Shown piece after piece: positions 1-12,248 of a stretch of DNA of 42,761 bases. The DNA lies in NCBI GenBank assembly GCA_018712955.1, contig DVGB01000005.1, positions 1-42,761 on the forward strand, in the 5' to 3' direction. The DNA comes from Candidatus Aveggerthella stercoripullorum. GTDB lineage: Bacteria > Actinomycetota > Coriobacteriia > Coriobacteriales > Eggerthellaceae. The position numbers and the translations under genes are program-made. The notes below the pieces were generated by a model that ran no database searches, was not told the DNA's origin, and saw only the letters and a program-made list of their open reading frames with translations. Each line of letters starts with the position of its first letter. The first letter of the stretch is position 1.

Positions 1-75
1 CATGAGGGAGATGATGGCCAAAAGAAAGGTTGAATGAGCTGCACACCTAGGCGATAACGGGCGCACAATCTAATG

Positions 76-119
76 AAATGGGCGGTGTTCACATTCGTGC
101 GAGCATCGCCCATTTTTCA
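76..119 (+). terminator. rho-independent terminator
   Basis: A 9-bp inverted repeat (AAATGGGCG at 76-84, CGCCCATTT at 107-115) is followed by a short T run. It would end transcription entering from the left edge. Two rightward frames end just before it (stops near 33 and 37), so the tail of one upstream gene may lie in bases 1-37, but the sequence is too short to identify. Confidence 0.6.
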
Positions 120-271
120 TGCGAATAATCACTCTTTGGCAGGAATAGAGCTGGTTTTCTTAAAATCAGCAATTTTCACAAGAAAAATTGTGAATTTTCC
201 CCTGGCTGCCGCTCTCCACCGCTCCTCCGTTCAGAAAGTTGCAATTCACCATCTGGACGGAGGAATTACAA

Positions 272-560
272 ATGACAACCATCAACTTGAAAGAGTTTTT
301 CTATTGGTACAAGGCAGACGAGTACATAGAGGTGACGGATGAAGTGGCTGAGGAACTGCGGGCCGATAAGCGGTATGAAGTCACCCACCACCGGCGTATG
401 AAACGCAACAAAGCCAACTACTCCCTGGACGCGGACGACGGCATTGAATATGCCGCCTGCGAGTTTGAACCCTCTCTGGAAAAGGCTTTGGACCTAATGG
501 AGCAGTGGGTGCGGTGCTATAAGGAAAGGGCCTGCCGCCTGCGTACCGCAGGCAGCAAGC
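272..560 (+). pseudogene. truncated sigma-factor-like gene of integrative-element type
   Basis: The reading frame starts at ATG 272 behind GGAGG (259-263). Its N-terminus (MTTINLKEFFYWYKADEYIE) and the later NYSLDADDGIE stretch resemble the small sigma-70-like regulators carried by clostridial integrative conjugative elements. Those proteins continue into a C-terminal helix-turn-helix (region 4). Here recognisable similarity fades at about residue 90, and the frame then runs without a stop into sequence antisense to the sulfatase gene, so the DNA-binding half is missing. The exact end is arbitrary. I infer a remnant of a mobile element truncated when the downstream cargo or a deletion was introduced. 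The family assignment is by remembered motif only. Confidence 0.5.
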
Positions 561-562
561 CC
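528..562 (-). terminator. terminator of the alkylsulfatase gene
   Basis: A long imperfect hairpin (GGGC 528-531 with GCCC 559-562, and GCCTGCG 537-543 with CGCAGGC 547-553) lies 25 bp beyond the stop of the leftward gene. On the minus strand it is followed by TTTCCTTAT, so it fits a rho-independent terminator for that gene pair. Confidence 0.55.
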
Positions 563-586
563 TCTCTATCCCGGAATTTTATACCC

Positions 587-2575
587 CTATGGCTCGATGA
601 TGGCAAAGTCGGGGGTAAACACCACCACATGCCCGCAGACAGCCTCCAGCAGGCCGGCCTCATCCTGAATTTCAGCCTGCGCTCTCACCGTTTCCGCGCT
701 GCCCTGGAGCAGGGCGAAGAGCGCGGCCTTGGGCATTCGCCAGACAGCGTCGGCATCGGCGGCCTGCACACCCTCCTGGTAGAGGAGCACCCCGGCGCGC
801 AGGGTGAGGACAAACTCCTCCCCGGTGTCGGTGACCACCAGGTTGACGGTGCCGTCGAGATCCTCCACCGCGCTGCTGTCCAGGCGGATACCCAGGTATT
901 CCAGCATCAAATCCACGCCCATCTTCCTCTGCACCTCACCGGAGCCGCTGGTGGGATTGGTGGTTACACCGTTCTGCCGCAGCTCCTGGGCACCGGTGAG
1001 ATAGGCGTTGCGCCAGGGGCCGGACTCTGCTTGATAACCCAGCTGCTCCAAGGCGTCGGCGCACAGGTAGCGGGCGTCCAGGTTCTCCGGGTCGGCGTAT
1101 ACCAGGGCGTTGGTGATCTGAGCTACCCACTGGTACTCCCCCTTTTCAAAGTCCGCCCGGGCCATCTCCAGCACTTTGTCCGTATCCCCCAGATATTCCA
1201 CCAGCTTCTGGGCGTATGCCGTGGGGGTCAGCTCGTCCAGGTGGATGGGATTGGCATCGTACCAGCCCATATACTTCTGATAGACCGCCTTTACATTATG
1301 CTTGAGGGTGCCGTAATACTGCCGTGTGTACCATACCTGCTCCAGGTCGGCAGGCAGCCGGATCATCTCGGCGATCTCGGTATCGGTATAGCCCTGGTTG
1401 ATATAGAACAGGGTCTGGTCGTGGATAAACTTATAGACCGCCGCCGTGTCCTCCATATACGCCCGGATCACGTCGTTGCCCCAATGGGGCCAGTTGTGGG
1501 ACTGAAACACTACCTGGGCCTCGTCCCCGTAGCGGGCCAGGGCCTCCATAATGTAGTTGGCCCAGGCGTTGCCGTCCCGCACCTGGGCGCCCCGGAGGGT
1601 ATACAGGTTGTGGAGGGTGCCGGTGCAGTTCTCGGCCAGCCACAGGGCTTTCTTTTCCGGCAGCCAGGTATTCATCTCAGCAGGGGCCTCGGTGCCGGGG
1701 GTCATCTGGAACTCAAAGGTCACCCCATCGATAACCCGGATCTCCCCCGTCTGGGTAATGGTATCAGTGGGAGAGAGATAGGAGATGGTGCCAGTGGACT
1801 GCCCCATACCGATGCCGATGCACATGGCTCCCTCCCCGTCCTTGTCCAGCAGAGTGCCGTACTGGTAAGCGGCCCGGCGGCCCATGGCGGTGCCGGCATA
1901 CACATTTTCGCTGATGGCGTGCTCCTCAAAGCCCTCAGGGGCAATGATGGGGATATTTTCTTCCGCCGCCTGCTCCTCGGAGATAATCCCCCGAATGCCG
2001 CCGAAGTGATCCACGTGGGAGTGGCTGATGATGACACCCATAACGGGGTACTCCCCCAACTGGCTGTCCACCAGCTCCATGGCGGCCTGGGCACACTCCA
2101 CCGACATGAGGGGGTCGAACACAATCCAGCCGGTATCGCCCTTGACAAAGGTAATATTGGACATGTCGTAGCCCCGCACCTGATAGATGCCGTCGGCCAC
2201 CTGAAACAGGCCGTAGATGTGGTTGAGCTGCGTGTTGCGCCACAGGCTAGGGTTAACGGTGTCGGGGGCAGAGGCGTCCTCCAGGAAGGCATAGGCGTCC
2301 TGGCTCCAGATCACCTTGCCGCTCTCGTCTTTGAGCTCCAGGAATTCCGGGGCACAGATCAGGCCTCTCTGGGCAAACTCCAGCTCCTGCTGGTCGTCAA
2401 AGTCCAGCTGGTCATAGACGCTCTGATTTATCTGGGCCGTAATTTCTGTAGCTCCCTTCTGCTCTGCGGTGAGCTCGGGCGCTCCTTCCTCCGCCGCCGG
2501 CGTCTCCTGACAGCCGGAGAGGAGGGAGACCGCAATGCCCGCCAAGCAGAGAAGCGCTATCCATCTCTTTTTCAT
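587..2575 (-). CDS. alkylsulfatase-type metallo-beta-lactamase lipoprotein
   Basis: The 662-aa product begins with a lipoprotein signal (KRWIALLCLAG, lipobox LLSGC) and so should be anchored outside the membrane. The metallo-beta-lactamase core carries the zinc motif SHSHVDHFGG at about residue 185, followed by WLAENCTGTLHNLYTLRGAQ and QSHNWPHWGN, which are typical of SdsA1/BDS1-type alkylsulfatases. A dimerisation segment (QKYMGWYDANP) and an SCP2-like C-terminal domain follow, so the full family architecture is present. That family hydrolyses sulfate esters such as dodecyl sulfate; the natural substrate here is unknown. The start is set by AGGAGGA seven bases upstream. It lies 21 bp downstream of the other lipoprotein gene, so the two probably share a transcript. 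Confidence 0.85.
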   Translation of the reverse strand: MKKRWIALLCLAGIAVSLLSGCQETPAAEEGAPELTAEQKGATEITAQINQSVYDQLDFDDQQELEFAQRGLICAPEFLELKDESGKVIWSQDAYAFLEDASAPDTVNPSLWRNTQLNHIYGLFQVADGIYQVRGYDMSNITFVKGDTGWIVFDPLMSVECAQAAMELVDSQLGEYPVMGVIISHSHVDHFGGIRGIISEEQAAEENIPIIAPEGFEEHAISENVYAGTAMGRRAAYQYGTLLDKDGEGAMCIGIGMGQSTGTISYLSPTDTITQTGEIRVIDGVTFEFQMTPGTEAPAEMNTWLPEKKALWLAENCTGTLHNLYTLRGAQVRDGNAWANYIMEALARYGDEAQVVFQSHNWPHWGNDVIRAYMEDTAAVYKFIHDQTLFYINQGYTDTEIAEMIRLPADLEQVWYTRQYYGTLKHNVKAVYQKYMGWYDANPIHLDELTPTAYAQKLVEYLGDTDKVLEMARADFEKGEYQWVAQITNALVYADPENLDARYLCADALEQLGYQAESGPWRNAYLTGAQELRQNGVTTNPTSGSGEVQRKMGVDLMLEYLGIRLDSSAVEDLDGTVNLVVTDTGEEFVLTLRAGVLLYQEGVQAADADAVWRMPKAALFALLQGSAETVRAQAEIQDEAGLLEAVCGHVVVFTPDFAIIEP

Positions 2576-2596
2576 CTCTGATTCCTCCTATCCCAT

Positions 2597-4639
2597 TCAG
2601 TCCTGCTTCCGGGCCAGCACCAGGGCGAAGCTCCCCTGGTACTCCCGCTCCGACCGGTCCAGCCCGCACCCGTCGGAGATGGCAAAGCGCAGCTCATAGA
2701 TCCCGGTCTCGTCCAGGGCCCGGCTCTTCTCCAGAGGCCGGCCGTCCTGTCCATACAGAGCCCAGGCTGCGGTCATCTCCCGCAGCTGGCCGGCCTGATC
2801 CTGATAGAACAGGGTGTAATTGTCCGGTCTGGCGGACAGACCGTTGAGACGCAGGGCCAAGGTCTCCTCCCCCCGCAGATTGTCTACCGTCACGTCCATC
2901 AGATAGCTTGCGGCCTGAAACCCATCAGGCAAGGCGCTGTCGTCCAGCCGGGAGCGGCCGGTGTTCTCTGCGGGGATCTCTCTGGCGGGACTCTGGGGCA
3001 GATAGGCAAACACATCCCGCCAGCACACCATCTCCATGGCGTTGGTGGGGCAGTAAAGGCCGTTGCCCGCCGGGTCGGCAATGAGGCCTACCGCCAGGTT
3101 GTTGTAGCCCGGCGCTGCAGACACGTCCGCCGTCAGCAGGGACTGGCCGGTGTCAAAGTCCAGCACCTCGTAGCGCCACATGCCGCTCTCCCCATCCTGC
3201 CAGTACCCGTAGAGATAGCCGGTGGCAGTACTCAGCTTGATCATGGCAGTCTCGCGGACGTCCGGCCGGGACCAGATCTTCTCCGCCGTATAGCCGCTGT
3301 CCGTCTTAATAAAATCCACCCGCTCCACACCGGGAGCAATAAAGGCGTTGCCCTGGGCCATCCAGTTAGCGTCATAGATATTGTCATAAGACTGGATAGC
3401 GGAGTCGGCGTCAGGGTCGGCCAGGCCGGCGTCGCCCGCTCCGAACCAGTTGGCTACGGTAACTGATACCGTACCCTCACCGCCGTCATAGACCAGGATG
3501 GAGTTCTCCACCGACACGGGCACCTCCTCTCCCAGATCATCCAGCACCGGGATCTGGGCCACAATCTCGCCGGTCTGAGAAGAGAGGGCCAGCAGGTTGA
3601 TGGGATCCAGGTTGTCGGTGAAGAGGATCAGATCCCCGGTCAGGGTGGGGGTGGTGCCGCTGCCCCAGGACAGGCCGCCGCCGGTGTAGCCGGAGCCCTC
3701 CCGGGCATCGTTGGCGCCGCCGCTTTCATAGGGGGTACGCCATGTCACCTGGACGCCGTCCTGCGCTGTCAGCATGTAGCAGGCCATATTGGTGAGGATC
3801 ACCGCCCCGTCCGGGTTGGCGGCAATGCCGTTTTCCGCCCCCTCCCCCTGGGCCAGAGGGTAGAAGAAGATATGGCCCTCCAGGGACACCTCCTCGCCTG
3901 TGTCCAGCTGCTGCATGTAGTCCCGGGAGATGTAGCCCAGAAATCCGGCGGGGTCCCGGCCGGGGTCAATGCGGAAGCCGCCGGTGGTGAACCACAGGTT
4001 GCCCTGGTAGTCGTACACCACACTCAGCAGCCGCTGGTCGATGTCCTCGCCCAGGGCTTTCACCGCCTGCTCCACGATGTCCACATCCATGACTTTTTCA
4101 AAGGTGGGCAGAACCCCGCCCTCCTCATCCATGGTGCGCAGCACCAGCAGATGGCCGTGGGAGGTGGGGGCCACAACCCGATCCGCCCAGTCCACGAAGG
4201 AGTAAGAGATCTGGAAGGAATAGCCGCCCCCATCATCCCGGGCAGGCACGAAGGAGCCGGCGCGGGTAATCACGTCCCCGTCCATGTCCGTAATGGAGAT
4301 ACCCCCCAGGAAGGGAGTAATGGCGTTGCCCCGGCTGTCATAAAAGGCGGCAGAGGGAGCGTGTATGTTCTGAGTCTCCAGGGAGACGGACACCTGGGAG
4401 CATATGCCCAGAGGAGCCGCCCCATCGGTGACGTCAGTGGCGTATACGTCGTTGTGGATAGAGTTGTCGCTGTCCGCCATATAGGGGTTGGCCGACACAT
4501 CCTTCACCGGAAGGGGGCGGGGAATCAGGGCGGCGGGCCTTTCGGCTTCCGTCTGATCATCCATTGGGGCGGCACAGCCCGCCAGAAGGCCCAGGGTAAG
4601 CAGTGCGGCGCAGCCCAAAAACAGCACCTGTTTCATCAT
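2597..4639 (-). CDS. large lipoprotein of unknown function, possible beta-propeller
   Basis: The 680-aa protein has a clear lipoprotein signal (VLFLGCAALLTLGLLAGCA). I do not recognise a named family. The body contains recurring short blocks typical of blade-repeat proteins, for example DYQGNLWFTTGGF, NPDGAVILTNMACYML, TLTGDLILFTDNLDP and TATGYLYGYWQDG. These suggest a beta-propeller that reads or binds a ligand at the cell surface; this is inference. GGGAGGG precedes the start, and two ATGs are adjacent (4639 and 4636). The alkylsulfatase-type gene follows after 21 bp on the same strand, so the product may serve in sulfated-compound capture or processing. No catalytic motif is visible. Confidence 0.7.
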   Translation of the reverse strand: MMKQVLFLGCAALLTLGLLAGCAAPMDDQTEAERPAALIPRPLPVKDVSANPYMADSDNSIHNDVYATDVTDGAAPLGICSQVSVSLETQNIHAPSAAFYDSRGNAITPFLGGISITDMDGDVITRAGSFVPARDDGGGYSFQISYSFVDWADRVVAPTSHGHLLVLRTMDEEGGVLPTFEKVMDVDIVEQAVKALGEDIDQRLLSVVYDYQGNLWFTTGGFRIDPGRDPAGFLGYISRDYMQQLDTGEEVSLEGHIFFYPLAQGEGAENGIAANPDGAVILTNMACYMLTAQDGVQVTWRTPYESGGANDAREGSGYTGGGLSWGSGTTPTLTGDLILFTDNLDPINLLALSSQTGEIVAQIPVLDDLGEEVPVSVENSILVYDGGEGTVSVTVANWFGAGDAGLADPDADSAIQSYDNIYDANWMAQGNAFIAPGVERVDFIKTDSGYTAEKIWSRPDVRETAMIKLSTATGYLYGYWQDGESGMWRYEVLDFDTGQSLLTADVSAAPGYNNLAVGLIADPAGNGLYCPTNAMEMVCWRDVFAYLPQSPAREIPAENTGRSRLDDSALPDGFQAASYLMDVTVDNLRGEETLALRLNGLSARPDNYTLFYQDQAGQLREMTAAWALYGQDGRPLEKSRALDETGIYELRFAISDGCGLDRSEREYQGSFALVLARKQD

Positions 4640-4741
4640 ATCCCTCCCGTATCGGTTAAGCAGGTGCTATTTTAAAAAAAAGCGGAGGGCTGCCGCCAGT
4701 ACGAAAGATGACAGTCCACTCATCAAAACTCGTACTTGACA

Positions 4742-4775
4742 GGCAAACGCCGCTCCGTACGGAGCGGCGTTTGCC
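4742..4775. repeat. perfect 34-bp palindrome
   Basis: GGCAAACGCCGCTCCGT (4742-4758) is followed without a loop by its exact reverse complement (4759-4775). A second inverted pair, TGCCGCCAG (4691-4699) and CTGGCGGCA (4791-4799), flanks it. It lies between the end of the LytTR gene and the start of the lipoprotein gene, both leftward. No T run follows on either strand, so it may be an operator or a T-less terminator. Confidence 0.8.
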
Positions 4776-4822
4776 AATATCTGTAATCATCTGGCGGCAC
4801 AGAAGGCATCAAGCGCCCTCTC

Positions 4823-5185
4823 TCAACCGCCCCGCCTGTTCCGGGCAAAGAGGAATTCCTCCCAGGCCCGCCGGGCCTTGCCCATCAGCTCCCGGCGGAT
4901 GGGGATGTTTTTGCCGTCAGCCATGACAAAGCACCGCAGGTCGGCGTCCATGTGTCCCACAAAGGCCAGGTGGGCCAGAAAGCTCTTGTGGGTCTGAAAA
5001 AAGGGCTGACCGGTCAGCCGCTGAGCCACAGCGGAAACCTTCTCATAGGCGGTCTTGACTGTCCCGTCCTTCAGATGGATGTTCACCACATGACCCTGCT
5101 GCTCCAGGTAAAAGATGTCGGAGACAGGAATTTCCTCCCGCACCCCGCCGCGCTGGATGGTAAGGGCGGGGTGGATTGGCAACAC
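4823..5185 (-). CDS. LytTR DNA-binding domain fragment (response regulator cut by IS)
   Basis: About 115 native residues remain of a LytTR-family transcription factor. The core GGVREEIPVSDIFYLEQQGH, HLKDGTVKTAYEKVSAV and FFQTHKSFLAHLAFV is the beta-rich LytTR DNA-binding domain. Complete relatives have an N-terminal receiver domain, which is absent. The first five codons (down to 5171) come from the insertion-sequence end, so the ATG at 5185 is fortuitous. The gene is leftward like the two lipoprotein genes downstream, which makes it a candidate former regulator of them. The fragment probably has no native promoter and is likely non-functional in signal reception. Confidence 0.75.
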   Translation of the reverse strand: MLPIHPALTIQRGGVREEIPVSDIFYLEQQGHVVNIHLKDGTVKTAYEKVSAVAQRLTGQPFFQTHKSFLAHLAFVGHMDADLRCFVMADGKNIPIRRELMGKARRAWEEFLFARNRRGG

Positions 5186-6079
5186 TTATTTGGACGGTTT
5201 CGACAGGATCAGCCCCGCCTTCCTGAACTCGACGGGGCTCATGTAGCCGAGCGTCGAGCGGATCCTGAAGTTGTTGTGCCAGTGCACGCAGTCGGACAGC
5301 TTGGCCTGCAGGTCGCGGAGGTCGGAGAAGCCGTCCCTGTAGGCCAGCTCCGCCTTGAGGACCTTGTTCGTCGACTCGTCGGCCGCGTTGTCGTAGGGGC
5401 AGCCCTTGGCGGAGAGCGACCGCTCGATGCCGAACGCCTCGAGCATGAGGCCGATCTCGGCGTTGTCGAGCTCGCTGCCGCGGTCGGTGCGGGAGACCTC
5501 GATGTCCGGGATCGGGAACTCCAGGGTCGCGAAGGCCGCCTTGACGAGCTTCGCCCCCTTGCTGCTTCCCGCCGAGCGGCCGACGACCTCCCTGCTGCAG
5601 AGGTCGACGGGCAGGCGGACGCAGCGCCAGGAGCCGCCGGCGCGCACGCAGGCGAGGTCGCTGCGGACGTGCGTGCGCGGCGCGCGCCCGTCGAAGGGCC
5701 GGCCGAGCACGCTCGGCAGCTCCGCCTCGTTCGGCTTGCCCGGGCGCGCCTTGAAGCGCTTCCTCCCGTGCGCGCTCGAGAGGCCGTCCTCCCTCATGAC
5801 GCGGGATATCCGCCTGCGGCTCGCGACGACGCCGCGCCGCTCGAGCGGCGCTTTGGCCTTCCTCGCGCCGTGCCCGCCCTTGCCCTCCGCACGGACGGCG
5901 GGAGCGTCGGGCTCGACGGGGTCCGGCGCGGGCGGGGGCTCCGGGCGCGGGCGGGGGCAGTGGTAGGTCGAGCGCGGCACGCCGAGGATCTCGCACTGCG
6001 CCGATGCCGGGCAGCGGTCGGCGTTGGCCGCTATCGCCGTCGCTTTCGCGCGAACATCGGCGCCGCTTGCTTTAGGACG
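5186..6079 (-). CDS. IS3-family transposase OrfB (integrase core)
   Basis: This is the catalytic half of the IS3 transposase. It shows the short helical segment CEILGVPRSTYHC, then an rve-type core with RSDLACVRAGGSWRCVRLPVDL (first Asp), SRTDRGSELDNAEI (second Asp), CPYDNAADESTNKVLKAEL (Glu) and the usual tail WHNNFRIRSTLGYMSPVEF. The catalytic D-D-E set therefore appears intact. No ATG, GTG or TTG codon lies in this frame near the orfA overlap, so the product should arise as an OrfAB fusion by -1 frameshifting. Candidate slip positions are the AAAG runs just before the orfA stop. The upstream limit given is the approximate start of the overlap. The stop TAA is at 5186-5188, inside the left terminal repeat. 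Confidence 0.8.
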   Translation of the reverse strand, partial: RPKASGADVRAKATAIAANADRCPASAQCEILGVPRSTYHCPRPRPEPPPAPDPVEPDAPAVRAEGKGGHGARKAKAPLERRGVVASRRRISRVMREDGLSSAHGRKRFKARPGKPNEAELPSVLGRPFDGRAPRTHVRSDLACVRAGGSWRCVRLPVDLCSREVVGRSAGSSKGAKLVKAAFATLEFPIPDIEVSRTDRGSELDNAEIGLMLEAFGIERSLSAKGCPYDNAADESTNKVLKAELAYRDGFSDLRDLQAKLSDCVHWHNNFRIRSTLGYMSPVEFRKAGLILSKPSK

Positions 6080-6327
6080 CCGACCTCCATGCGGAGCCCC
6101 TTGCTCTCGCGCTCCAGCTCGATGACCCTGCTCTGCTCGGGCGTCCTGTTGTCGGCGGCGTGCGGCGAGCCGGCGGCGTCGATGGAGTCGATCCGCCTTC
6201 GCAGCGTCGTGCTCCCGAGATCGTGCTCGCGCATGATCTCGCTTGGCGGCTTCCCTGCGCTGTAGAGCGACGCAATCTGCCTCTTGAGCTCGTCGGTGAA
6301 ATGCCTCGGGCGCTTTGGGTCGGCCAT
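6031..6327 (-). CDS. IS3-family transposase OrfA (helix-turn-helix)
   Basis: The 98-residue OrfA starts at ATG 6327 behind GGAGG. It contains the helix-turn-helix FTDELKRQIASLYSAGKPPS with EIMREHDLGSTTLRRRI, which binds the terminal repeats. A leucine-zipper-like stretch follows (SRVIELERESKGLRMEVGVLKQA) and in the family mediates multimerisation. It overlaps OrfB in the -1 frame by roughly 50 bases, the standard IS3 arrangement for making OrfA alone as regulator and OrfAB as transposase. There are no internal stops or frameshifts, so the element may still be active. Confidence 0.85.
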   Translation of the reverse strand: MADPKRPRHFTDELKRQIASLYSAGKPPSEIMREHDLGSTTLRRRIDSIDAAGSPHAADNRTPEQSRVIELERESKGLRMEVGVLKQAAPMFARKRRR

Positions 6328-6384
6328 CCGAGCCTCCTTCCGCAGGCCCTCGTGAAACTGTCCAACCTGGTGTAGCCAATCCAC

Positions 6385-7533
6385 GCTTCGACCGGCGTGC
6401 TTTCGGTCTCGAACCCGCTGCAGGCAGCGGAGGTGACGGGCGTCGACGACGCGTATTCTTACACGGGCGACCCTATCGAGCCGGTGCCGACCGTCGTGCT
6501 GGACGGTACGGTCCTTATTGCGGGCGTCGACTACGAGGTGTCCTATCGCGACAACGTGAACGCAGGCCAGGCCTCGATGGTCGTGACGGGCAAGGGTGCG
6601 CACGCTGATCTGTCGATTACGGTGCCGTTCACGATCGAGCCCGCTCGCATCGTGGGCGTCGAGGTCGAGATGGAGGACGCGTACTTCTACACGGGAAGCC
6701 CCGTCGAGCCGAAGCCGTCGGTTTCCTTCGGCGGCAAAGAGCTAGGGGAAGGCTCCGATTACCTCCTGTCCTACGAATGGAACACGGATGTGGGCACGGC
6801 GCGCCTGCACCTTGACGGCATAGGCAACTTCGCTGGCACGGCATACGTCGACTTCCGCATCGCCTACGAGATAACGGCGGACATGGTCGCGCCCATTCCC
6901 GACCAGGAATGGAACGGCTTTGCCGTCACGCCGGACGTGACGGTCGTCCACGATGGCAGAGAGCTCTCCCTGTCATCCGACTACACGGTCTCTTACCTGG
7001 GTAACGACCGGCAGGGAACCGCGTACGCCATCGTCACGGGCAAGGGCGATTACGCGGGCACGGTGCGCGTGCCCTTCAAGGTGGGCGGGGAGGTCGTCTA
7101 CCTTGATGCGGGGGAGTGGGCGGACGGCACCTCGTACGCCTGGGCGACCTCCTATATCGCGCGGGCGTCCGAGGCGGGCTACGTTTCCGGCTACGAAGTT
7201 CCGGGCGGGTACGAGTTCAGGCCGCGCAACCACGTCACGCGCGCCGAGGTCGCCACGATCTTGTACCGGTGCACGGTCGCCGATTCGACGCCGTCCCTGG
7301 ATGCAGGAAAGTTTCCTGACAGCACGGAAGCGTTCGAGTCCACGGAAGACTGGCGCGAACTCGGCGCCCTGAACGTCGCCTGGGCGGAGCCGTACTTCGT
7401 CTGGACGTGCGACACGGGCATCCTGAGCGGCTCTGCCGGCCCGACAGGCCTGGAGCTTAAGCCGAACGACTACGCCGACCGGGCGCAAATGGCGAAGATC
7501 ATCGTGGTCGCCGCCGAAACGGTCGGCGCTTAG
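6385..7533 (+). CDS. 5'-truncated surface protein with MBG-like repeats and SLH-like C-terminus
   Basis: The frame is open from the right edge of the insertion sequence, so the native N-terminus, including any signal peptide, is lost; GTG 6397 is only the first possible start. Three related repeats of about 75 residues follow (YTGDPIEPVPTVVLDGTVLI with DYEVSYRDN; YTGSPVEPKPSVSFGGKEL with DYLLSYEWN; WNGFAVTPDVTVVHDGREL with DYTVSYLGN). They fit the MBG/YDG-type beta-sandwich found in bacterial surface proteins. The C-terminus has two S-layer-homology-like segments (ASEAGYVSGYEV...PRNHVTRAEVATILYR and CDTGILSGS...LKPNDYADRAQMAKII), which suggests wall attachment. Adhesion or matrix function is inferred. 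Confidence 0.75.
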   Translation, partial: ASTGVLSVSNPLQAAEVTGVDDAYSYTGDPIEPVPTVVLDGTVLIAGVDYEVSYRDNVNAGQASMVVTGKGAHADLSITVPFTIEPARIVGVEVEMEDAYFYTGSPVEPKPSVSFGGKELGEGSDYLLSYEWNTDVGTARLHLDGIGNFAGTAYVDFRIAYEITADMVAPIPDQEWNGFAVTPDVTVVHDGRELSLSSDYTVSYLGNDRQGTAYAIVTGKGDYAGTVRVPFKVGGEVVYLDAGEWADGTSYAWATSYIARASEAGYVSGYEVPGGYEFRPRNHVTRAEVATILYRCTVADSTPSLDAGKFPDSTEAFESTEDWRELGALNVAWAEPYFVWTCDTGILSGSAGPTGLELKPNDYADRAQMAKIIVVAAETVGA

Positions 7534-7539
7534 GCGCCG

Positions 7540-7581
7540 AAGCCCGCCTGTGCGGCGAAATGCGGTGCAGGCGGGCTTTTT
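7540..7581 (+). terminator. terminator of the surface-protein fragment
   Basis: AAGCCCGCCTG (7540-7550) pairs perfectly with CAGGCGGGCTT (7568-7578) around a 17-nt loop and is followed by a T run to 7581. It lies 7 bp after the stop codon. Confidence 0.9.
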
Positions 7582-7688
7582 CGCGCCCTGGCACAGGACG
7601 TGCTGCATTCCGCCCACCCTTTTGCCGTCGGGTTTGGTGCTTGTCCGGTGAAAATTTGCGCGTGGGTCGCAGAGGCTGGCAGGAGCCG

Positions 7689-7694
7689 TATAAT
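7689..7694 (+). promoter_or_regulatory. -10 box of the carboxylase operon promoter
   Basis: A perfect TATAAT lies 130 bp upstream of the carboxyltransferase start in the 290-bp gap 7534-7823. The -35 at the usual distance (GTCGCA, 7666-7671) is poor, so the -35 assignment is uncertain. Apart from this and the terminator at 7540, the gap shows nothing recognisable. Confidence 0.5.
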
Positions 7695-7823
7695 AGCCCA
7701 ATGCCAAATTTGGCAGGGAGCGAAAGACCACAGCGCGCTGACGCGGGCTTGCGCCGCCAAGGGCGGTCGCATGGACGCTCCACGTCTCGCGTTCTTTGAA
7801 TGAGGAAGAAGGGGTGCAAGGTC

Positions 7824-9724
<1,901 letters not shown>

Positions 9725-9725
<1 letters not shown>

Positions 9726-11077
9726 TGTTCGATAAAATCCTGATTGCAAACCGCGGCGAGGTCGCCCTGCGCATCATGCGCGCCTGCAAGGAGCTGGGCG
9801 TGAAGACCGTCGCGGTCTACTCAACCGAAGACGAGGACACCTATCCGGTGCAATACGCCGACGAAGCCGTCTGCATTGGACCGGCGCCCGCGAACAAAAG
9901 CTACCTGGTGATGCCTTCCATCATCATGGCGGCGAAGAACCATGGGTGCCAGGCTATCCATCCGGGCTACGGCTTCTTGGCGGAGAACGCCGACTTCGCC
10001 CGCGCATGCGCGGAGAACGACATCGTCTTCATCGGCCCGTCTCCTGAGTGCATCGAGGGCATGGGCGACAAGTCGACGGCGCGCGAGACCATGCGCGCCT
10101 GCGGCGTGCCCACCGTCCCTGGCTCTGACGGCATCGTCGACACCGTGGAAGAAGCTCAGGCTTTCGCCGAGCGCGTCGGCTACCCGGTGCTCATCAAGGC
10201 TACGGCAGGCGGCGGCGGCAAAGGCATGCGCGAAGTGCACGATCCGGCCGACCTCGCGTCTGAATTCCAGGCAGCCCGTACCGAAGCGCAGGCCGCATTC
10301 GGCAACGGCGACGTATACCTGGAAAAACTCGTTCTGCGTCCGCGCCATGTGGAGATCCAGGTTCTGGCGGACGACTTCGGCACGCGCGTTTCGCTCTGCG
10401 AACGCGACTGCTCGATTCAGCGCCGCCACCAGAAACTGCTCGAAGAGGCTCCCAGCCCGGCGCTCACGGAGGAAATCCGCCGTGCAATGGGCGTGGCCGC
10501 CATCAAGGCAGTGCGCGCGGTCGACTACCGCAACGCCGGCACGATCGAATTCTTGCTCGACCAGGACGGAAAGTTCTACTTCATGGAGATGAACACCCGT
10601 GTGCAGGTCGAGCATCCGGTCACGGAAGAGATTACCTTCACGGACATCGTGAAGGAGCAGATCCGCATTGCTTCGGGCGAGCCGATGAGCTGCGGCGAGC
10701 GCGCTCCCTTCGTCCCGCACGGGCATGCTATCGAATTCCGCATTAACGCGGAAGATCCGGAGCATGGCTTCCGTCCCTGCCCGGGCACCATCACGCGCTT
10801 CGAGCCCCCGGCAGGTCCGGGCGTGCGCGTGGAAAGCTACGTGCACACGGGATCGCGCATCTCTCCGTACTACGATTCCCTCGTTGCCAAACTCATCGTG
10901 CGCGGCTCGGATCGCGCCGAGGCCATCGCCCGCGGCAAGCGTGCGCTCGAAGAGTTCAAGATCGAGGGCATCAAGACCACGATCCCGTTCCACCAGCGCG
11001 TGCTGGAGAACGAGTGCTTCCTTGCAGGCGATGCGTGCACTGACTTCATTGAAACGCAGATGGGAGATGTCCTATGA
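9725..11077 (+). CDS. accC: biotin carboxylase subunit
   Basis: The 450-aa protein is a standard-length biotin carboxylase, which carboxylates the biotin on the carrier using ATP and bicarbonate. It shows the N-terminal FDKILIANRGEVALRIMRAC, the ATP-grasp glycine loop KATAGGGGKGMR, the EKLVLRPRHVEIQVLADD and CERDCSIQRRHQKLLEEAPS blocks, the catalytic MEMNTRVQVEHPVTE segment and the C-terminal PSYDSLVAKLI-type motif (SPYYDSLVAKLIV). ATG 9725 overlaps the stop of the carboxyltransferase-AccB gene, so translation is coupled. It can serve the fused carboxylase and, if free carrier is made, acetyl-CoA carboxylase. accA and accD are not in this window. Its own stop overlaps the next start (ATGA). 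Confidence 0.95.
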
Positions 11078-11409
11078 GCGAACTGAACCTTGAAGGCATG
11101 GCCATCGCTCCCGGCGTCGTGGAGACCATCGTCTCCTTGGCGGTGCGCGATGTGGACGGCGTGGTCTCTGTCGGTTCGGCGAGCGGTCTGCGCCTCTTTG
11201 GCGGCCGTCCGTCCGGCCAGGGCATTGAGGTCACGGTGGACGAAAACGACGAGCTTCATGTCGACGTTCACGTGGACGTTCGCTACGGCGCTTCGCTGCC
11301 CCAGGTTGCGGAGAACATTCGCACGTCGGTTGCGGATGCCGTGACCACCCAGGTGGGCTTGAACGTCGCCGCGGTGGACGTGTACGTCGAAGCGATCCAG
11401 TTCGAGTAA
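11074..11409 (+). CDS. Asp23/Gls24 family protein
   Basis: The 111-aa protein belongs to the Asp23/Gls24 (DUF322) family: GMAIAPGVVETIVSLAVRDVDGV, GLRLFGG, VTVDENDELHVDVHVDVRYG and the C-terminal VGLNVAAVDVYVEAI. Firmicute relatives (YqhY) sit between accC and nusB and are linked to control of acetyl-CoA carboxylase, with Asp23 itself acting near the envelope. The same position here, with a 4-bp ATGA overlap with accC, supports a related role. No transmembrane segment is present. The product is not specific enough for a gene symbol. Confidence 0.85.
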   Translation: MSELNLEGMAIAPGVVETIVSLAVRDVDGVVSVGSASGLRLFGGRPSGQGIEVTVDENDELHVDVHVDVRYGASLPQVAENIRTSVADAVTTQVGLNVAAVDVYVEAIQFE

Positions 11410-11600
11410 CAGATAATGCGCGGGCCTTTGCCCGCGTGACATACGGCGTCCGAACGGCTTGCGTCGGATGGCGGCGACCAACAGCTGCTGTCTGGGCGAA
11501 GGCGTTCGGACGCCCCTTGCTTGCGCGGAAGGCACTGTTTTCGGCGCAAGACCCTTACGTGTACACAGATGCGATCTTTGAGAAGGAAAGACCGAGGGCA
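11410..11600 (+). other. structured spacer with three hairpins before nusB
   Basis: Three consecutive inverted repeats fill this 191-bp gap. They are CGCGGGC/GCCCGCG (11419-11436, 4-nt loop), GGCGTCCGAACG/CGTTCGGACGCC (11445-11514, perfect 12 bp around 46 nt) and CTTGCGC/GCGCAAG (11520-11550). None is followed by a T run, so simple termination is unlikely. It may be a structured leader or attenuator of the nusB-xseB-dxs genes. I do not recognise a known riboswitch. Confidence 0.55.
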
Positions 11601-12248
11601 ATGAGCAAAAAAACCAAGCGTCCGCACCATCATCATGAGCGCACGGAAGCGCGGCGGCTTGCTTTGCAGATGCTCTACCAGAGCGAAATGCTGGAAAAGT
11701 CACCGAGCGCTATCCTTGACGAGGCGAACTATGTCGCAGAGGAGGGCGTGCCTTCCGCGTATGCGCAGCGCCTGCTTCGCGGAGTGGAAGAGCATCGCGA
11801 GGAGATAGACGACGAACTGCGCGTCTCGTCCGAGAACTGGACGCTTTCGCGCATGTCGGCAGTCGATCGCTCGCTTTTGCGCGTGGCAGTCTACGAAATG
11901 CTCTACGTGGACGAAGTGCCGCTTTCGGTCTCCATTAACGAGGCGGTCGAACTGGCGAAAAGCTTCGGCGGCGGAGATGACTCCCATCGCTTCGTGAACG
12001 GAATTCTGGGCAGGATTGCCCGCAGCATCGAAGCGGAAGGAAAGAAGGCTGCCGAAGCGCAGGAGCCTGAGCCGTCCGCCATCGACCTGGTTGCAGCAGC
12101 GTTCGCGCGCGAACAGCAGGAGAGGGGCGATGCGGAAGCCCAGGCAGAGAGCGCTGCGCCAGCCGAGGAATCCACAGCAGAGAGCGTCCTGTCCGACGAC
12201 GCGGTTTGCGCCGTTGAGGGAACCGTTCGCTCCGTCCAGAACGCGTAG
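11601..12248 (+). CDS. nusB: transcription antitermination factor NusB with acidic tail
   Basis: The 215-aa product carries the NusB fold: RTEARRLALQMLYQSEM, YAQRLLRGVEEHREEIDDELRVSSENWTLSRMSAVDRSLLRVAVYEML, and PLSVSINEAVELAKSFGGGDDSHRFVNGILGRIAR. NusB binds boxA RNA with S10 and supports antitermination on rRNA operons. After the usual domain (about residue 145) comes a 70-residue Ala/Glu-rich tail predicted to be disordered, which is longer than in typical NusB. A basic His-rich N-terminus (KKTKRPHHHHER) precedes the fold. The start at 11601 is chosen over upstream in-frame extensions because family similarity begins there. xseB follows after 7 bp. Confidence 0.9.
   Translation: MSKKTKRPHHHHERTEARRLALQMLYQSEMLEKSPSAILDEANYVAEEGVPSAYAQRLLRGVEEHREEIDDELRVSSENWTLSRMSAVDRSLLRVAVYEMLYVDEVPLSVSINEAVELAKSFGGGDDSHRFVNGILGRIARSIEAEGKKAAEAQEPEPSAIDLVAAAFAREQQERGDAEAQAESAAPAEESTAESVLSDDAVCAVEGTVRSVQNA

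Follow-up and report, generated by a model that had tools for sequence, protein, structure and literature searches.

An IS3-family element between clostridial-type and coriobacterial DNA in a draft genome, and a probable second edge of the foreign DNA on another contig

The window analysed in this study is a stretch of 42,761 bases, which is the whole of contig C43. The source genome (G000) is a draft of 2.18 Mb in 115 contigs, with a completeness of 85.8% and a contamination of 0.4%. The contig begins with a clostridial block, followed by an IS3-family element and then by coriobacterial DNA. The gene on each side of the element is broken. The features are as follows:

1–5171, no strand: clostridial (Flavonifractor-like) block at the 5′ contig end, assigned from nucleotide identity and Markov score
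272–526, + strand: 5′ part (85 codons) of a sigma factor-like HTH gene, 55–63% alike at the amino acid level in G407, G250 and G469
587–2575, − strand: intact gene of an alkylsulfatase-type protein with a metallo-beta-lactamase fold, 662 aa (PF14863, PF14864, PF00753)
2597–4639, − strand: intact gene of a putative lipoprotein, 680 aa, no Pfam family, 46–84% alike at the amino acid level in nine clostridial loci
4823–5171, − strand: 3′ part of a LytTR response-regulator gene (PF04397), with intact homologues at L050 and L051
5172–6383, − strand: IS3-family element, 1212 bp, 70% GC, with orfA at about 6031–6327 and orfB at about 5186–6046, both on the − strand
5172–5201, no strand: terminal inverted repeat on the orfB side (24/30 match)
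6354–6383, no strand: terminal inverted repeat on the orfA side (24/30 match)
6384–7533, + strand: 3′ part of a coriobacterial surface-protein gene with repeats and a C-terminal SLH domain (PF00395), no start
7800–9725, + strand: carboxylase/biotin-carrier gene (PF02436, PF00682, PF00364), which fixes the synteny with contig C149 of genome G002 (efp ... carboxylase)

The element at 5172–6383 reads TGGATTGGC...GCCAATCCA. Its ends agree at 24 of 30 positions, and none of 200,000 random pairs of 30 bases from the window was equally good. The same two ends were present in all full-length relatives, so the bounds are exact to the base. OrfA and OrfB lie in two frames and were assigned to IS3 by NF033516 (E = 7.6e-51, score 173.5 against a cut-off of 160 bits). 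Their Pfam domains include HTH_Tnp_1 and rve (PF13333, PF00665 and PF01527). The element thus has an rve/DDE transposase, an upstream HTH OrfA in another frame and inverted repeats at both ends, as in the IS3 family. The sequence-only reading of this DNA had named an IS3 element with these bounds and matching ends, and it was right on all three points. It had also noted that the flanks are GGG and CGC and hold no target duplication, which is true of the window copy.

The block to the left of the IS showed 81.6% nucleotide identity to a Flavonifractor MAG (L050) over 591–5166 and 79.4% to a second clostridial MAG over 693–4742. Positions 200–460 were 69–72% identical to three further genomes of the Flavonifractor-like genus. 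A near-identical clostridial donor was not found in the genomes searched, the best reaching 82% at the nucleotide level. Outside the clostridia, the lipoprotein had one hit among 60 relatives and one among 396 Coriobacteriia, in each case the source genome itself. The remaining LytTR ORF encodes 120 aa, with the DNA-binding domain (PF04397) at residues 19–105, and its open frame continues to 5185, inside the IS. Intact homologues have 240 aa and an N-terminal receiver, which the window copy has lost. The gene lies on the − strand and runs away from the IS, so the receiver end is the part that was lost; the claim that it had been cut before its DNA-binding domain was the wrong way round. The alignments to native LytTR genes end at 5166 and 5170, and the IS starts at 5172. 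An alignment that reaches to within about a base of the IS edge points to a genuine IS end within a clostridial gene, and not to a random mis-join.

Smaller features were also seen in the block. The peptide at 272–526 matched a plasmid record annotated as a sigma factor-like HTH protein, and its similarity ends near 526, short of the hairpin that follows the alkylsulfatase gene. This stretch is probably an older break in the clostridial block, left by a mobile element. Positions 1–620 gave no phage match and one weak plasmid match. A short motif at 519–566 has 83–85% matches in G090, G468 and G474 of the Flavonifractor-like genus and is probably a repeated extragenic or terminator sequence. 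A strong perfect inverted repeat (4742–4775) lies between the lipoprotein and LytTR genes. Just before it, 4695–4741 has an 83% match at a second site in G060, next to the same genes.

A third-order Markov score was used to separate clostridial-type from native DNA. The left pieces scored −0.025 to −0.075, the IS +0.068 and the right pieces +0.034 to +0.086. The held-out native pieces (n = 97) had a mean of +0.057, with one below zero, which was the end of contig C6. The held-out clostridial pieces (n = 42) had a mean of −0.044, with none above zero. A wider clostridial set lay closer to zero (above zero: G061 30/70, G186 7/20, G060 0/63, G062 0/67), so the score is best at recognising a Flavonifractor-like donor type.

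On the right side, 39 of the 41 genomes searched (own genome included) had matches within 6384–12000, and 6384–42761 is coriobacterial. The surface gene has an open frame that reaches the IS edge and no signal peptide. Taken together, the identities, the genome matches and a score that is negative to the left and positive to the right of the IS confirm the earlier picture of a clostridial-looking block next to an actinobacterial surface-protein gene without its 5′ end.

The missing 5′ end probably lies on contig C6. In G002, a genome of the same genus, aroB-pepP-efp sit upstream of the gene that matches the window carboxylase gene at 7800. From translations, we take the whole order upstream of the G002 carboxylase gene to be aroK-aroB-pepP-efp-LytTR regulator-kinase. 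Synteny comparison with G002 located aroB-pepP-efp of the source genome on C6. Behind efp, a surface gene with a signal peptide starts at 3877, oriented as expected for the window surface gene. The sequence then shifts at about 5175–5240 (change point at 5175, flat to 5240), and the Markov score is −0.041 over 5240–6578, where the contig ends, compared with +0.049 over 4800–5240. The stretch G000:C6 from 3877 to about 5240 is the probable 5′ half of the surface gene. Synteny and orientation suggest that the two halves are one gene; both halves were not found in one protein of any relative searched.

Three genes lie in the tail of C6: one truncated, one small and one with a signal peptide. Relatives of the last were only clostridial in the fetched DNA, at 28–30% amino acid identity in two genomes. 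In G121 a surface gene next to the LytTR gene is 30% like the C6 tail, and in G062 the 28% match is close to the lipoprotein gene. The peptides used in this comparison were those of the alkylsulfatase, the lipoprotein, the receiver and the sigma factor-like gene, and the third C6 peptide. Composition and these weak matches suggest that the C6 tail is of clostridial type. There is no IS at the C6 joint. A reciprocal exchange between the clostridial and coriobacterial loci is not claimed, as G060, G061 and G187 had no matching arrangement.

A survey of the source genome covered 99 of the 115 contigs in 4278 scoring windows of 1 kb, with masked ones left unscored. Twelve of these fell below zero, five on C6, four on C21 and three on C74, the last two contigs being marginal. 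C21, C74 and C29 were rejected as further clostridial-type stretches because of their marginal scores; judging from translations, C21 and C74 hold membrane-protein genes there. We fetched 180 contig ends, dropped eight masked ones and scored 172, or 174 with the two ends of the window. The negative ends among the 172 were the 3′ end of C6 (−0.025) and, marginally, the 5′ end of C21 (−0.004); ends other than those of C6 had a mean of 0.070. The window itself scored −0.036 at its 5′ end and +0.057 at its 3′ end. The two clear clostridial-type ends among the 174 both face the same broken surface gene. The two foreign-native edges of a possible island were found on two contigs, the window and C6, and none of the 99 contigs sampled out of 115 held the stretch that would lie between them.

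In the source genome, 23 groups of contigs, including one of masked contigs, share end overlaps of exactly 131 bases. These exact overlaps suggest a graph that was probably built with k = 131. The overlaps (for example L161 1–131, on C6) let the order of several contigs be read off, and C64 continues the 3′ end of the window.

Nine further full-length copies of the IS, plus many fragments, were found in 8 of 396 Coriobacteriia. The IS was not found in the nine clostridial carriers of the block, in 400 genomes of the clostridial family (longest match within the IS, 65 nt) or in 391 genomes of the clostridial class (a 63-nt match in one genome). The two large searches covered sampled groups, with two candidates scored per genome. 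Full-length copies in eight Coriobacteriia, set against none found in about 790 clostridial genomes, indicate that the IS family is coriobacterial. Contigs of six genomes (G052, G511, G579, G601, G654 and G540) end within the IS, and several assemblies stop inside it at 55, 77 or 114 bases.

Some copies have features of their own. A second IS of the same kind is present in the source genome on C84 (L002, 223–1408), and its terminal inverted repeat seems to run three bases past the element (TGA/TCA). Two copies in different families (L133 on G739:C31 and L134 on G648:C1) have the same flanks and are 99.6% identical over the surrounding 4.2 kb, which reflects either a recent transfer between the families or contamination. 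The copy in G044 (L025 on C22), 92% identical to the window IS, has SGL where other copies have SDL, at the presumed first catalytic Asp, and is thus probably inactive. Recombination inside the IS between two variants was rejected, because the identity profile against two 92% copies shows no switch.

Target duplications were judged in eight full-length copies from other genomes, representing seven independent sites, as L133 and L134 count as one. A 3-bp duplication (AGG) was found only at L136, and the other six of the seven sites had none. Four contig ends in G052 pair as ACG and CCT, which suggests 3-bp duplications there as well. The IS family makes 3-bp duplications at simple insertions, but most full copies judged are without one. 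The lack of a duplication at the window copy is therefore not unusual for the family (one of eight full copies elsewhere has one) and is not diagnostic. The same six sites would agree with a simple single insertion in which the IS landed on a boundary that already existed and mutation later erased the duplication. However, each IS edge coincides exactly with the break in its neighbouring gene, LytTR on one side and the surface gene on the other, and the boundary would have had to lie at that very base. We regard this explanation as very improbable.

Two copies of the IS may instead have recombined, one in the surface gene and one in acquired clostridial DNA, with loss of the outer flanks. An exact IS between the unrelated flanks GGG and CGC would be explained in this way, and the 3-bp duplications made by the family at simple insertions speak in the same direction. 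However, no other copy of the window IS was found in the source genome, where the nearest is the C84 copy at 72% identity (draft genomes lose repeats), and the C6 edge has no IS. This form of the event seems unlikely, and its share is counted within the probability of the main reading.

The main reading, to which we give a probability of roughly 55%, is that the surface gene truly contains clostridial DNA and that an IS3-type adjacent deletion left the IS at one edge of that DNA. The exact IS, its clostridial and coriobacterial sides and the C6 counterpart at the syntenic place are the observations to be explained. Clostridial DNA would have entered a coriobacterium and become inserted within the surface gene or beside it. 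A transposition would then have brought the host IS into the clostridial LytTR gene. Starting at one end of the IS, an adjacent deletion would have removed the receiver half of LytTR, the remaining foreign DNA on that side and part of the surface gene. A single IS with unrelated flanks and without a target duplication would remain, as is seen in the window. The island would have one edge on C6 at about 5240, where the 5′ half of the surface gene is joined directly to a clostridial-type gene, and the other at the window IS. We infer that foreign DNA joins C6 and the window in one molecule and that the steps followed in this order. Recombination between two IS copies and adjacent deletion would look alike without an ancestor.

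The contig passes through an IS that breaks other assemblies, as would be expected if the IS has a single context here. Assemblers take contigs of smaller k forward and prune weak branches, so this passage is support and not proof. Several observations stand against an island. The assembly is a draft of metagenome type, and both clostridial stretches are contig ends. The lipoprotein of the block was found in no other of the 396 Coriobacteriia. The clostridial genes are intact and unameliorated, as a chimera would also give, and those at both edges are cut, with no tidy end of a mobile element seen. The undeleted locus, with the IS and the DNA deleted later, was not found in any strain; the nearest clostridial relative is 82% identical at the nucleotide level. 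A plasmid-borne island was rejected, since the lipoprotein, the C6 tail and the IS had no match in the plasmid collection, and a phage-borne island was rejected for lack of a match in viral contigs. The most detailed version of the history is doubtful. In it, the roughly 6.5 kb seen on the two contigs would be chromosomal-type clostridial DNA, captured recently between phyla by IS-anchored illegitimate recombination with no homology at the other edge, and the surface protein would be switched off.

Chimeric contigs are a recognised problem of metagenome assembly. The LytTR gene of a clostridium in the same sample, interrupted by the IS, and a coriobacterial surface gene interrupted by the IS could have been joined by an assembler that crossed the shared 1.2-kb repeat, with the C6 tail as a second mis-join. 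The draft state of the genome would suit such an error, as would a foreign block that is intact, unameliorated and placed at a contig end (the window is one whole contig of 115), a lipoprotein without a relative in any other coriobacterium, and an IS known to break other assemblies. Against this, the IS was not found in the sampled groups of about 790 clostridial genomes. The C6 joint has no IS, and a crossing at an IS leaves it unexplained. The assembler would also have had to prune differently at the two IS ends, keeping the clostridial branch at one and the coriobacterial branch at the other. If two mis-joins had arisen independently among the roughly 174 ends, the chance of both pointing to one gene would be about 1/173. 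We give a metagenomic chimera a somewhat less than even chance.

The sequence-only reading had offered two choices, recombination between two IS copies or an assembly that collapsed two copies of the same IS. The contig does contain the boundary of unlike blocks, an exact IS and a broken gene on either side. The choice itself was incomplete, because missing duplications are usual in the family and also follow from an IS3-type adjacent deletion. Collapse of two copies is weakened, since it needs the IS in a clostridium and the searches of 9, 400 and 391 genomes did not find it there. It also leaves C6 unexplained, where no IS stands at the change to clostridial-type DNA. An assembly artefact has become less likely but is not refuted.

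If the island is real, unaltered clostridial chromosomal genes were recently transferred into a gut actinobacterium, an IS marks one edge and a surface protein was disrupted. If it is not real, the contig shows how an IS can bring 5 kb of DNA from another phylum into a draft whose contamination was put at 0.4%. Either way, the two contig edges are concrete sites for testing.

The window IS, which probably belongs to the IS150 group, resembles the IS3 family in its two overlapping frames, an OrfA with HTH_Tnp_1, an OrfB with HTH_21 and rve, a length of about 1.2 kb and its TGG...CCA ends. Its relatives make 3-bp duplications at simple insertions, as IS3 elements do. Unlike a typical IS3 element, the window copy lacks a duplication, and the DNA on its two sides is of different phyla. 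For IS150, also of the IS3 family, PMC11708052, on the E. coli long-term evolution experiment, describes a large deletion in 14 of 83 IS events, with a duplication in none of the 14. The window resembles the adjacent deletions described there in having one IS, unrelated flanks, no duplication and a loss of adjacent sequence. Those deletions occurred within one genome, whereas the window has foreign DNA on one side and no ancestor for comparison. In homology-facilitated illegitimate recombination (PMC3240628), shared sequence joins one end of the foreign DNA, whereas the other end is joined with no such sequence. The IS edge and the C6 edge would fit these two types of end. Here the mechanism would require the shared IS in the donor, and the IS was not found in the clostridial genomes searched. 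All parts of the finding are of known kinds, and what is new beyond the sequence-only reading is the second, matching edge on C6.
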